From the IMG/VR virus record IMGVR_UViG_3300045996_000102, positions 1-23,353 of that record: DNA of 23,353 nt; one strand, written 5' to 3'. Numbering within the stretch: position 1 is the first letter of the stretch; each line of letters starts with the position of its first letter. Of this stretch, positions 1,111 through 4,497 are shown one piece after another. A program made the translations under genes and the position numbers. The stretch comes from a virus. The notes below the pieces were generated by a model, which saw only the letters and a list, made by a program, of their open reading frames with translations, had not been told where the DNA came from and did no database searches.

Positions 1111-1368
1111 TCAGCGTCTGCGCTTGTGGTAGTGGGCTCGCTCGGTGTTGAGGTCGTGGAGCAACTGGCAGCGGTCGCAGTACGTGCCGGGTGGTGCGTC
1201 GGCGGCGAGCATCTGACCGCAGCGTGGGCACCTGTTCAGTTGGTCGTAGCGGCTGACGTGCTCAGCGGTCTGGTGCCCGCTGGGTGTGGTGCATGGTTCC
1301 CCTGGACCTGCGCCGCACGTGTCGCAGGCGTACGACCTGAGGATGATGCGCCATGTGCTCAGCGCCAT
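1111..1368 (-). CDS. Double zinc-ribbon protein, 85 aa
   Basis: Two metal sites can be seen. The first is C15-x2-C18 with GAGPGEPC26 and histidines 32/37, matching a common actinobacterial zinc finger of the form CxxCGAxPGxxC...H. The second is C47-x2-C50 with C64-x2-C67, a classical zinc ribbon. The C-terminus is basic (HKRRR), fitting nucleic-acid binding. The ATG at 1368 overlaps the upstream methyltransferase gene by 10 nt; longer upstream readings in this frame are not protein-like. The exact role is unknown. Confidence 0.7.
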   Translation of the reverse strand: MALSTWRIILRSYACDTCGAGPGEPCTTPSGHQTAEHVSRYDQLNRCPRCGQMLAADAPPGTYCDRCQLLHDLNTERAHYHKRRR

Positions 1369-2159
1369 GACTGCACGTCCAGCAGCTCGGCGATGGCCCA
1401 TGCAGCCTGCTGTGGCACGACGCCGTTCCCGAGCGCACGCAGTTGCTGGTTGTACGTCAGCCCGGGCACGTCGGTGACCCAGCCGTCGGGGAGGCCCATC
1501 ATCCACTCGACAAACCGTGGGGCGAGTCGTGGACCTTTCGGCCCGTCCTCCACGGGTGCTGGTGCAGCCCTCCCGAGCACGCCAGCCCAGCGGTGCACTG
1601 CGACATCGAACGGGCCCCAGTCCACGTCTGGCTGTTCCCCTGGTAGCGGGATGGCCAACTGCTCGCCCGGTGGGTCCAAGTCATCTGGCACACGTGCGAG
1701 GGCTGGCCCCACCCAGTTCAGCCCGGGTGACTTGCGCCGACCTTGTGACTCGGCGCCCAGATTCTTTGCGTCCTGCGTGGAGGGCGTGGGCAGCATGTAG
1801 TCAGCGGGTGTGTAGTGACCGGGCAGCAGCGGCATGCCGTCCAGCACCGACTGCACGATCACTGACAGCGCTGGCCCGTGCATGGTGCCGGTGCGCCGCT
1901 TCACGTCAGCGCGTCGTGCCTGCCACTGCTGTGGTGTCTCGGTGTTCTCGGAGTGGAACGGGTTGGGCGTGGGCAACAATGAACGATCGGAAGCGGACGT
2001 GCGGGGCGCCAACCTCTGACGCTTGTACGCCCGTCCACTGGCAGTCATACCTGAGACTGGCCAAGTCTCCGACCACACGCCCATATGCCCGCATGTGCAC
2101 ACCTGCGGTGTCTCCCACGCATCCCGGGCAGGGTTCCAGCTCGCTATCAGCTCGGGCAC
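1359..2159 (-). CDS. C5-cytosine methyltransferase, C-terminal/target-recognition protein
   Basis: A 266-aa protein carrying what the upstream methyltransferase gene lacks: RFVEWMMGLPDGW (motif IX-like) and LGNGVVP (motif X, about residues 243-249). The N-terminal part contains VWSETWPVSGMTASGRAY and two LLPTP/MLPTP segments, a pattern I recall from actinobacterial phage methyltransferase C-terminal regions (memory, not a search). The GTG start at 2159 is chosen because AGGAG lies 6 nt upstream (GAGAGGAGCGCACAGTG). The gene begins inside the N-terminal methyltransferase gene and overlaps it by 254 nt in the +1 frame. Together the two products contain a full motif set, suggesting a heterodimeric enzyme like M.AquI, or a frameshifted fusion. 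Confidence 0.75.
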   Translation of the reverse strand: MPELIASWNPARDAWETPQVCTCGHMGVWSETWPVSGMTASGRAYKRQRLAPRTSASDRSLLPTPNPFHSENTETPQQWQARRADVKRRTGTMHGPALSVIVQSVLDGMPLLPGHYTPADYMLPTPSTQDAKNLGAESQGRRKSPGLNWVGPALARVPDDLDPPGEQLAIPLPGEQPDVDWGPFDVAVHRWAGVLGRAAPAPVEDGPKGPRLAPRFVEWMMGLPDGWVTDVPGLTYNQQLRALGNGVVPQQAAWAIAELLDVQSWR

Positions 2160-2523
2160 TGTGCGCTCCTCTCACATTCTCCCAGACCACCAGCCGTGGG
2201 CGCAGCACTGCGATGGCTTCACGCATCGCCACCCACAGGTTGGATCGGGTGCCGGTTGTCATGCCGCCGCGCTTGCCTGCGTGCGACAAGTCCTGGCAGG
2301 GGGTGCCACCCGTGATGACATCGACGGGTGGCACTTGCGACCAGTCCACCTTGGTCACGTCGCCTAGGTTCGGCACGTGCGGGTGGTGGCTGGCCATGAT
2401 GGCTGCTGGTGCTGGCGCACTCTCGGCGTACCACGCCAGACGCGTGTCCACGACGGTGGCCAGTGCCAGTTCCAGACCGCCGTACCCAGCGAACATGGCG
2501 CCGACGGTCAGTGGTGTGTTCAT
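1906..2523 (-). CDS. C5-cytosine DNA methyltransferase, catalytic N-terminal protein
   Basis: A 205-aa protein with the catalytic half of a C5 methyltransferase: motif I FAGYGG (11-16, AdoMet binding), motif IV GGTPCQDLS with nucleophile C76, motif VI ENV (115-117) and motif VIII APHVRFR (173-179). It stops shortly after motif VIII, so the target-recognition domain and motifs IX-X are absent; family members are usually 320-450 aa. These parts are encoded by the overlapping gene at 1359-2159. The ATG overlaps the resolvase stop (ATGA). It probably methylates phage cytosines to escape host restriction. No partner restriction enzyme is present. Confidence 0.85.
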   Translation of the reverse strand: MNTPLTVGAMFAGYGGLELALATVVDTRLAWYAESAPAPAAIMASHHPHVPNLGDVTKVDWSQVPPVDVITGGTPCQDLSHAGKRGGMTTGTRSNLWVAMREAIAVLRPRLVVWENVRGAHSARADSELEPCPGCVGDTAGVHMRAYGRVVGDLASLRYDCQWTGVQASEVGAPHVRFRSFIVAHAQPVPLREHRDTTAVAGTTR

Positions 2524-2870
2524 CGTGCTGGCACTTTCAGCCGGTCCACGCGGATGAGCGTGGGAGCGATACGCACGGCGTACAGGTCCACCCAGCCACC
2601 GACTGAACGGCAGGCGAGCAGCGCCCGGGCGCCAGCCTGTTCAGCCGCTTCCACGAGGGCCAGCCGCTCGGCTGGGCTGATGCGTGGGCGTTCATCCCGG
2701 CGTGTGACTTTGCAGGACACCAGTAGCGGTTTCTTGTCGCCTCGTAGGGCCACGATGTCGGCTGGGCCCAGCGAGCCAGCGGCGCGCACCACCACCCACC
2801 CGTGGGCGCGTAGCGCGTCACGTGTCTGGCGTTCGAAGTAGTCACCCCGCTGGCGGTTGCTGTTCGCCAT
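2520..2870 (-). CDS. Hjc-like resolvase / PD-(D/E)XK nuclease
   Basis: A 116-aa protein matching small Hjc-type Holliday junction resolvases: RGDYFERQ (E13), RAAGSLGPADIVALRG (S33, D38) and VSCKV (K54), then a helical segment ISPAERLALVEAAEQAGARALLA. In archaeal Hjc the third motif is ExK; here the acidic position is Ser (SCK), and I recall actinophage relatives with QCK. It may therefore bind or cut junctions with altered chemistry. It probably resolves recombination or replication intermediates made by the neighbouring RecT-like and exonuclease proteins. ATG start with AGGA close upstream; it overlaps the Cys-rich gene by 29 nt. Longer upstream reading in this frame runs through the previous genes and is rejected. 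Confidence 0.72.
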   Translation of the reverse strand: MANSNRQRGDYFERQTRDALRAHGWVVVRAAGSLGPADIVALRGDKKPLLVSCKVTRRDERPRISPAERLALVEAAEQAGARALLACRSVGGWVDLYAVRIAPTLIRVDRLKVPAR

Positions 2871-3042
2871 CGTCCTGGTGCTCCGCGTTCCATACGTCCT
2901 CCGAGCCGTCGTTATAGCCAGCGTCGTAACCCGCATCGAAACCCTGCTGGTACGCGTCCTGAGGCTGGTCCTCGCTGCCGTCAGCGCAGCGCGGGCAGCC
3001 TGCACATGTGCAGTCATGGCATGTGCAGATGCCGCTAGACAT
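2842..3042 (-). CDS. Cys-rich acidic mini-protein, 66 aa
   Basis: The first 20 residues contain six cysteines in the order CTCHDCTCAGCPRC, an unusual dense metal-binding knuckle. The rest is acidic and Gln/Tyr/Gly-rich, with a short repeat GFDAGYDAGYNDG. The ATG has GGAGG 6 nt upstream and overlaps the methyltransferase stop by 8 nt. The function is not recognised; the spacing of cysteines would suit zinc or another soft metal. It sits between a methyltransferase and a nuclease in the early operon. Confidence 0.65.
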   Translation of the reverse strand: MSSGICTCHDCTCAGCPRCADGSEDQPQDAYQQGFDAGYDAGYNDGSEDVWNAEHQDDGEQQPPAG

Positions 3043-4147
3043 CTGCCACCTCCGTCAGTCGCTGGTGGGTGGTGTCCACTGCGTCGGCGTCGATGTCGCA
3101 GCCCACAAACCGTCGGTCGGTGGCGACACATGCGGCGGCGGTGGTGCCGCCGCCTAGGAACGGGTCGGCCACCAACTGGCCCGGTCTGGTGAACGTCTGC
3201 ACCACCTGCGTGAACGCGTCGAGGTTCTGGCCCCAGTAGTGGTGGCCCTTGTCGTCGCCGCTGCTGCGGAACACGTCGTGGAAGCGCGGCCCACCGCCGT
3301 AGATGAGCAGTGGTTTCCAACCTTGGATGACTCGTCGCGCATGGACGGTGCCGTGCGCCCCTGGCGTGAGGTAGGCGCACGTCCAGCGGTAGGGCCGATG
3401 GCCACTGAGGCGGGCGAACACCTCAGGCAGGTACATGTGCCCGCTGAGCACCACCAGCACGCCATCTGGTGTCAGCACGTCGTCAGCCCACTCGGCCAGC
3501 TCGCTGAACACGTGCAGGTGCTCGGCTGGGTAGGGCGGGTCAGTGATGATGGCGTCAACGTTCCGCAGACCACCCAACACCTGCGTGAAGTCGCCCACCT
3601 CGAGGGTCACCGTCGGTGGCAGTGCACGCAGCCGTGCGGCGTCCTCCAGCCCGTGGCGGTCGCGTGTCCTGGCTGCACGTGCGTACCTGGCGTCACGCAG
3701 CAGCCGATACCGCGCCACCTCCTTGTTGTGTCGGGTGGCGTCGGCCACCAGACCCTTGATGTCGTCCACGGTGAACGTGTCACGGATGGCCCGGGCCTCA
3801 GACACCATGCGATGGCTGAGGCCCAGTTCTGAGTACGTCGCTGGCGTATCCCCTTCGGATTCCGAAGGGGTTACGGGTGGGCGACCGCGACCGCCGCTGG
3901 CGTCGTGCACTTGGCCGGTGCGCTGCGCCTCGTCCACCACGTCGGCCAACTTGCGGTCACACAGCAGTTTCACTTCCTGCGCCATGTTGATGGCAGCAGT
4001 GCCTAGCCGCGCCTGCCGCGCCAACACCTCCACAGCCGACGCCATGGCGTGCAGACCCATCACCGAGGTGATGTCCCGGGCCTGTTCCAGTTGCTGGTGC
4101 GCCGCTGTCAGTTGTGCCAGTGCGTGCTGCTCGGGCTGCTCGGTCAC
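3035..4147 (-). CDS. DPPY-type DNA (adenine-N6 or cytosine-N4) methyltransferase with N-terminal helical domain
   Basis: 370 aa. The C-terminal half is an AdoMet amino-methyltransferase with motif IV DPPY (203-206) placed before motif I DPFLGGGTT (328-336) and VGCDID (348-353), the beta-class order. Residues 10-75 are predicted helical; about 80-150 include SELGLSHRMVSEARAI, similar to phage proteins that fuse a helix-turn-helix-like region to a methyltransferase. A palindromic element (3843-3872) encodes the linker TPSESEGDTP (93-102). The GTG start at 4147 gives a GTGA overlap with the upstream gene and has GGAGG 8 nt before it; the longer ATG option at 4207 would add 20 residues and overlap more. 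It probably protects phage DNA. Confidence 0.82.
   Translation of the reverse strand: MTEQPEQHALAQLTAAHQQLEQARDITSVMGLHAMASAVEVLARQARLGTAAINMAQEVKLLCDRKLADVVDEAQRTGQVHDASGGRGRPPVTPSESEGDTPATYSELGLSHRMVSEARAIRDTFTVDDIKGLVADATRHNKEVARYRLLRDARYARAARTRDRHGLEDAARLRALPPTVTLEVGDFTQVLGGLRNVDAIITDPPYPAEHLHVFSELAEWADDVLTPDGVLVVLSGHMYLPEVFARLSGHRPYRWTCAYLTPGAHGTVHARRVIQGWKPLLIYGGGPRFHDVFRSSGDDKGHHYWGQNLDAFTQVVQTFTRPGQLVADPFLGGGTTAAACVATDRRFVGCDIDADAVDTTHQRLTEVADV
3843..3872. repeat. Intragenic palindromic element, copy 1
   Basis: CCCCTTCGGA-T-TCCGAAGGGG has perfect 10-bp arms around one central base. With the flanks GGCGTAT and TT it is a 30-bp unit that recurs at 20573-20602 with a single difference, at the palindrome centre. 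It lies in frame inside the DPPY methyltransferase gene, in a linker. As RNA it would form a very stable hairpin. Confidence 0.9.
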
Positions 4148-4497
4148 GTCGATGTCCTCCAGTGCAGGTGCAGCAGGTCGGGGTGGTGGTGGTAGTCGTG
4201 CAGCCACCGCAGGTGCATGAGGTGGTCGCGCAGGCTGGTGGCGTCCAGCGGCTCGCGTCTGTCGTGCAGCACGAGGTGGGCAGGCGCATGCGCCATATCA
4301 GCCAGCCGGTTCAGCACGCGCATGGTGTGCTGTGGGTTGGTGCTGGCTTCCAGCAGGTACAGCGGGCGAGCACACCAGCCGCAGTAACCCATCAGGTCCA
4401 CGTCCATGGCGTACGCCCATGAGGGCAGCGCCCAGCGGTGCCAGTCCTGCACCGTGCGGTCGTGGTAGAGGTCCCGGTTCACGATCCGCAGCGGCAT
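4144..4497 (-). CDS. Conserved-looking phage protein, 117 aa, unknown
   Basis: Contains a Cys pair CGWC with a preceding GY and a following LYLLEAS (about residues 36-52), a possible metal or binding site, and a C-terminal region very rich in His (HDYHHHPDLLHLHW). The organisation DVDLMGYCGWCARPLYLLEA resembles a small actinophage family that I recall only as hypothetical. It starts 5 nt after the RecT-like gene and its stop overlaps the methyltransferase GTG (GTGA), so the two are co-translated. No enzymatic motif is visible. Confidence 0.65.
   Translation of the reverse strand: MPLRIVNRDLYHDRTVQDWHRWALPSWAYAMDVDLMGYCGWCARPLYLLEASTNPQHTMRVLNRLADMAHAPAHLVLHDRREPLDATSLRDHLMHLRWLHDYHHHPDLLHLHWRTST

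Follow-up and report, generated by a model that had tools for sequence, protein, structure and literature searches.

The stretch of DNA analysed here, below called the window, comes from an IMG/VR virus record and is 23,353 bases long. On its minus strand two open reading frames overlap by 254 bp, gene A (ATG start, 205 amino acids) and gene B (GTG start, 266 amino acids), whose products we call alpha and beta. Since the starts are 364 positions apart (2523-2159), which is 1 modulo 3, B is read in the +1 frame relative to A. When the reading frames were determined again, their coordinates, strand, register and overlap came out as the preliminary description had them, and so did an AGGAG six nucleotides upstream of the start of B (2170-2166, before the GTG at 2159). 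In its longer form, AGAGGAG, this stretch is predicted to pair with the anti-Shine-Dalgarno sequence at -10.8 kcal/mol.

Table 1. Features of the overlapping genes A and B, in window coordinates.
Feature	Position	Strand	Basis or remark
Gene A (alpha)	1906..2523	-	motifs I-VIII; PF00145 and phrog_363 matches
Gene B (beta)	1359..2159	-	overlap-coded N-terminus, LPTP region and motifs IX-X; phrog_1008, tblastn
Dual-coding stretch, A in frame 0 and B in frame +1	1906..2159	-	redraw test 0/3000; family synonymous constraint
AGAGGAG, Shine-Dalgarno of B	2166..2172	-	formed by AGA GGA (R-G) codons of A motif VI ENVRG
GTG start codon of B	2157..2159	-	same relative position in relatives
Motif VI ENVRG of A	2167..2181	-	sequence and invariant columns
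Motif IV PCQ of A, catalytic Cys76	2293..2301	-	sequence and invariant columns
Motif VIII GAPHVRFRSFIVA of A	1972..2010	-	within A/B overlap
Conserved B peptide WSETWPVSGMTASGRAY	2025..2075	-	+1 reading of A's motif VII-VIII region
Motifs IX-X of B (PRFVEWMMGLPDGWVTD ... GNGVVPQQA)	1404..1520	-	C-domain HMM, A2 invariant columns, confident predicted fold

Gene A matches Pfam family PF00145 (E 5.6e-26, profile positions 4-165) and phrog_363 (E 1.6e-58). Its profile finds M.HhaI chains as the nearest solved structures (E down to 7e-26), and it shares 45-66% identity with 53 relatives in the A3 set. C5 methyltransferase motifs I, IV (PCQ), VI (ENV) and VIII follow one another in order, the invariant columns including C76 and E115-N116-V117. 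Judged by these matches, A corresponds to the N-terminal portion of a C5 methyltransferase, comprising motifs I-VIII. Motifs IX and X were found on B and not on A, according to phrog matches and A2 invariants. B matches phrog_1008, 'DNA methyltransferase', over nearly its whole length (E 8.7e-46) and positions 278-317 of the phrog_363 profile; hmmscan gave no PF00145 match for B of the window. The distribution of motifs proposed earlier, with I, IV (C76), VI and VIII on A and IX-X on B, is borne out by PF00145, phrog_1008 and the invariant columns.

The neighbouring genes were examined as well. Directly upstream of A, the open reading frame at 2520-3380(-), whose stop overlaps the start of A as ATGA, matches the archaeal Holliday junction resolvase Hjc with its last 80-100 residues (PF01870, E 6.4e-13). 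A second DNA methyltransferase, of N6/N4 type and with a DPPY motif (PF01555, E 4.6e-13), lies just upstream of A at 3035-4207(-), so the phage encodes an adenine/N4-type enzyme in addition to the C5-type one. A match to a putative phage zinc-finger domain (PF24623, E 2.2e-06) was obtained with the gene following B (1111-1368, minus strand), whose ATG at 1368 lies inside the last codons of B.

Dual coding of the overlap was tested in the window itself. The protein sequence of A was kept fixed, its codons were drawn 3000 times from the usage of A and three other window genes, and the +1 peptide was scored against a family profile built without the window. The real peptide scored 75.4 bits, a value reached by none of the 3000 redraws (mean 33.2, sd 7.2, maximum 55.7), and the +1 frame stayed open in 56% of them. 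As the window has no close relative (the closest shows 71% over 120 columns), selection in it was tested through the family profile only.

Relatives were collected for a broader view. Searching by tblastn with B returned 569 phage records, whose names point to actinobacterial hosts almost throughout; A gave 1,099 records from a broader range of hosts. Altogether 449 loci were assembled from IMG/VR, GTDB genomes and GenBank, and HMMs of the A domain and of the IX-X domain defined 337 non-redundant loci in this set. Among these, 101 are split, with IX-X in the +1 frame, and include isolate genomes; 212 are one-frame, with IX-X in the frame of A and no stop between. The remainder comprises 8 loci with IX-X in +2, 3 in frame but interrupted and 13 without detectable IX-X. 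On the A-domain tree, 23 changes between the split and one-frame states are needed, at least 10 of them forced by well-supported (starred) branches. In three pairs of cluster-F-type mycobacteriophages (L138 and L301, L313 and L307, L306 and L305) a single inserted base separates the split locus from its closely related one-frame counterpart, L138 and L301 being otherwise identical. A single base thus shifts IX-X from one frame to the other; some of the split loci may be recent or erroneous, and these pairs may reflect sequencing errors or natural switching.

Two loci of the collection show peculiarities of their own. A beta-like peptide (36%, E 6e-7) is encoded at 1201-1506 of the locus from the Methylorubrum extorquens AM1 megaplasmid (L451), an alphaproteobacterial match, the one hit of this kind seen outside Actinobacteria, which suggests that the arrangement may extend beyond them. 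In Gordonia phage Sitar (L141), the A match is broken into two parts and about 490 extra bases are present; at 1877-2344 the methylase gene contains, in another frame, an open reading frame whose annotation is HNH endonuclease (in relatives LAGLIDADG), suggesting insertion of a homing-endonuclease gene.

Codon choice across the family carries a clear mark of the second frame. In split genes, the frequency with which distant homologues sharing an amino acid also share its A-frame codon is 0.334 upstream of the overlap (0.317 expected), against 0.670 (0.348 expected) and 0.466 (0.293 expected) within it. The Gly of LGYD is written GGG in 98% of split and 97% of one-frame genes (upstream Gly, 14% and 19%), which places a Gly in the TSG motif of B; in split genes Ser124 is AGC in 100% and Glu127 GAA in 99%. 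Fisher values for such columns take no account of phylogeny, and reliance is better placed on the thinned and redraw tests. The window itself has Arg (AGG) in the column of the LGYD Gly and still keeps the Gly of B. In sets thinned to below 70% identity, similarity of the +1 peptides exceeds that of synonymous redraws with z=19.6 (split, n=24) and z=17.9 (one-frame, n=48); the upstream control gave z 0.7 and 3.1, respectively, the latter indicating a small residual bias. Of 190 one-frame genes, 184 have the +1 frame open across the overlap, where 125 were expected and at most 137 were seen in 40 redraws.

Substitution rates between related pairs, counted per A-codon position 1/2/3, lead to the same result. 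Motifs I-VI show the pattern of a sequence coding in the frame of A (.086/.059/.267) and the overlap that of a sequence coding in both frames (.104/.059/.151). Between motif VIII and the +1 stop, one-frame genes change at.259/.125/.120, as expected if the +1 frame is coding, and the A frame takes over again after this stop (.141/.122/.307) and in IX-X (.105/.079/.322). The pattern of the +1 stretch repeats when each gene is used once, in 20 bacterial-genome pairs (.277/.095/.057) and in 39 virus pairs. The proposal that a long stretch is constrained in both frames thus finds support in family synonymous constraint, codon-position substitutions and window redraws alike, and A and B are an overprinted gene pair with both frames under selection in the overlap.

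It could be argued that the N-terminus of B is a passive shadow of the motif VII-VIII protein of A, and that a recent frameshift or sequencing error has broken a one-frame gene. The SETWPxSG pattern of B does partly follow from DLAxLGYD of A, one-frame relatives exist, and the three mycobacteriophage loci above are one inserted base away from such genes. Redraws that keep the protein of A, however, fail to reproduce the conservation of B, both in the family and in the window, codon positions reveal +1-frame selection in split and one-frame genes, and the split state recurs in 101 non-redundant loci, isolate genomes included. We regard this explanation as extremely improbable. For the window, an error or recent frameshift was rejected on the grounds of recurrence and selection; some of the mycobacteriophage 'split' cases could be of this kind. 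The rule that relatives with one continuous frame would betray such an event fails here, since 212 of 337 loci are one-frame and yet carry the conserved +1 gene.

The start of beta is conserved together with its ribosome-binding site. A start codon and a Shine-Dalgarno sequence were found at the right place in 72 of 88 split and 143 of 188 one-frame genes, as opposed to about 31% and 20%, respectively, in synonymous redraws. There are two main starts, counted from ENVRG: an ATG at +4 and a GTG at +22. The latter position (from the E of ENVRG), used by the window, is shared by 43 of the 88 split and 96 of the 188 one-frame relatives. The Arg of motif VI is AGA or AGG in 70% of split and 51% of one-frame genes (upstream Arg, 28% and 8%). 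A further gene set, mostly from bacterial genomes, has its own later Shine-Dalgarno-like stretch and ATG (translated KETTM), and ten split genes are without a clear start and Shine-Dalgarno sequence. For genes with a chosen start and Shine-Dalgarno sequence, the overlap has a median length of 224 bp in split genes, and beta one of 161 amino acids (range 70-422) in one-frame genes. This conservation across relatives supports the original suggestion of an internal start for B with a ribosome site written into the motif region of A.

The alternative offered at the outset is a +1 ribosomal frameshift; programmed and placed towards the end of A, it would yield a single A-B fusion with B not separately initiated. 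It would account for the fact that A and B together make up one complete methyltransferase and that the register is nearly always +1 (101 loci against 8 in +2). Yet the frame of B is selected over the whole overlap, upstream of the stop of A, and B possesses its own conserved start and Shine-Dalgarno sequence. All three stop codons occur at the end of A, in most cases 1-31 codons past motif VIII, and no slippery context is conserved there in the 101 split genes (positions -6 to -1 all at or below 46%). One-frame genes would, moreover, need a second, backward shift. For these reasons, namely the conservation of the B frame ahead of the stop, the separate start and the absent slippery consensus, frameshifting is disfavoured and appears quite improbable as the source of B.

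Let us turn to the one-frame relatives. Their +1 frame over motifs VI-VIII matches the N-terminus of B and runs on beyond it. From motif VIII to the +1 stop, the frame of A is open in 210 genes and interrupted in 3, where about 80 open ones would be expected if only B were constrained. As the +1 stretch evolves as coding sequence and the frame of A is kept free of stops, both frames appear to be translated. Substitution patterns indicate that a 'shadow' linker under almost no selection connects one-frame alpha to IX-X and that beta is a separate, selected product. In the AlphaFold model of one such alpha (L165), motifs I-VIII and IX-X are better supported, and pLDDT is below 50 in the linker (residues 225-267). 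Beta N-terminus matches overlap A in 419 of 420 cases, all in +1 (449 loci); the lone non-overlapping match (L005) begins directly downstream of the A match, and no free-standing copy, as a clue to the origin of this segment, was found in the 449 loci.

From these comparisons it seems highly probable that the C5 methyltransferases of actinobacterial phages and prophages, a large family, carry an obligatory overprinted second gene even where only one ordinary open reading frame is apparent. Read in +1, the DNA of motifs VI-VIII together with the next 30-350 codons would encode the second subunit, with the alpha frame held open as a nearly unselected linker. Hundreds of annotated single enzymes would then be two-protein ones, with up to about 400 dual-translated codons.

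What beta contributes besides IX-X is less evident from database comparisons. Pfam scans of beta and beta-prime gave nothing above the cut-off, the beta profile matched no sequence of solved structure, and no solved fold or Pfam family was matched by the N-terminus and LPTP region. AlphaFold assigns pLDDT 84-91 to the overlap-coded residues 1-50 of B and above 90 to most of the IX-X part, and low values to the region separating the two; the overlap-coded N-terminal segment is probably folded. A Foldseek search with this model gave weak short matches only, at E about 2 and for the most part to DNMT3 methyltransferase domains. Judging from its place, we infer that the LPTP region is the target-recognition part. 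A different view accepts dual coding and synthesis of both proteins and gives beta another job, above all in its IX-X-less form in one-frame genes: it might, for instance, regulate or inhibit alpha, serve as a partner that binds DNA, or act against restriction. Such a role would fit the lack of a known fold or Pfam family and the presence of all motifs I-X in one-frame alpha. On the other hand, beta of split genes carries the essential motifs IX-X, and the segment of one-frame alpha at the place of the target-recognition domain is a nearly unselected shadow, predicted to be disordered, so that target recognition must come from elsewhere. We hold another job for beta to be unlikely, though the least unlikely of the alternatives considered.

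By computational evidence, both frames are selected, the internal start and its Shine-Dalgarno sequence are conserved, and the frame of alpha is kept open. The most probable explanation is a two-chain cytosine-C5 DNA methyltransferase made from out-of-frame overlapping genes, with catalytic alpha and internally started beta assembling with each other. Both chains are most likely translated from one message, beta by internal initiation. Alpha would supply the cofactor-binding and catalytic part, motifs I-VIII; beta would supply the overlap-coded N-terminal segment, the variable LPTP region at the expected place of the target-recognition domain and, in the window, motifs IX-X. The two would join into one enzyme active in methylating phage DNA which, given the phage context, most likely guards it against host restriction. 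As for the forced co-expression of two subunits put forward in the preliminary description, we infer it together with heterodimer function. The window would thus be one variant within a family whose members almost all have a +1 beta gene. In split genes IX-X would ride on beta and in one-frame genes on alpha, joined to it through the out-of-frame linker, with beta ending before or just inside IX.

Existing annotations record this conserved arrangement only in part. Arthrobacter phage Andrew (gp43/gp44) and Mycobacterium phage Anthony (gp80/gp79) have the same pair in the same order, with annotated overlaps of 239 and 215 bp, and in Babsiella gp55 is embedded in +1 within one-frame gp54. In many other records, such as Abidatro, Inventum, phiBT1 and Tweety, B is started too late or omitted. 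In phiBT1 (L142, 1203-2241), the annotation of gp9.1 reads methylase and adds that it 'may be inactive'; an unannotated beta match follows, and gp9.1 may be part of a two-chain enzyme.

Long same-strand overlaps with both proteins conserved are thought uncommon in double-stranded DNA phages, and in this case a catalytic domain is one of the partners. With its hundreds of natural replicates, the family lends itself to gauging how a second frame restrains an enzyme, and annotations of missed, truncated or 'inactive' methylases can be corrected. It is predicted that an annotated single open reading frame expressed alone will fail or lack specificity. One-base natural switching of IX-X between chains also bears on the origin of split enzymes. 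In the literature searched, we found no paper on the conserved dual coding, its constraint or mechanism, or the hidden beta of one-frame genes. Split C5 methyltransferases are already known, as are some overlapping pairs and one embedded open reading frame in GenBank; what is new, as far as this literature shows, is that a catalytic region has conserved dual coding, that a second gene lies hidden throughout the family and that IX-X is placed in either of two ways.

Among known systems, M.AquI is similar in consisting of a I-VIII chain and a IX-X chain, the window having I-VIII on A and a variable region with IX-X on B. The gene overlap of M.AquI is short. Its large subunit contains motifs I-VIII and its small subunit part of the variable region and IX-X (PMC3404938). 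The cut there falls within the variable region, whereas here beta starts at motif VI, 254 bp are shared in +1 and an extra N-terminus is coded by the overlap. Split M.SssI, which like M.AquI lends support to the mechanism proposed here, works best with a C-terminal fragment starting between motif VIII and the target-recognition domain, and overlapping fragments work too (PMC3404938). Across split genes, the stop of A falls in the same region, as a rule 1-31 codons past motif VIII. In M.EcoHK31I, beta is read in a different frame from within the gene for alpha, a resemblance to the one-frame relatives described here. M.EcoHK31I naturally consists of two polypeptides jointly holding all motifs (PMC3404938). 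Its alpha, however, keeps I-VIII, X and the target-recognition domain and its beta supplies motif IX only, a division that differs from that of the window, where beta has both IX and X, and from that of the one-frame relatives, where beta has the LPTP region instead.
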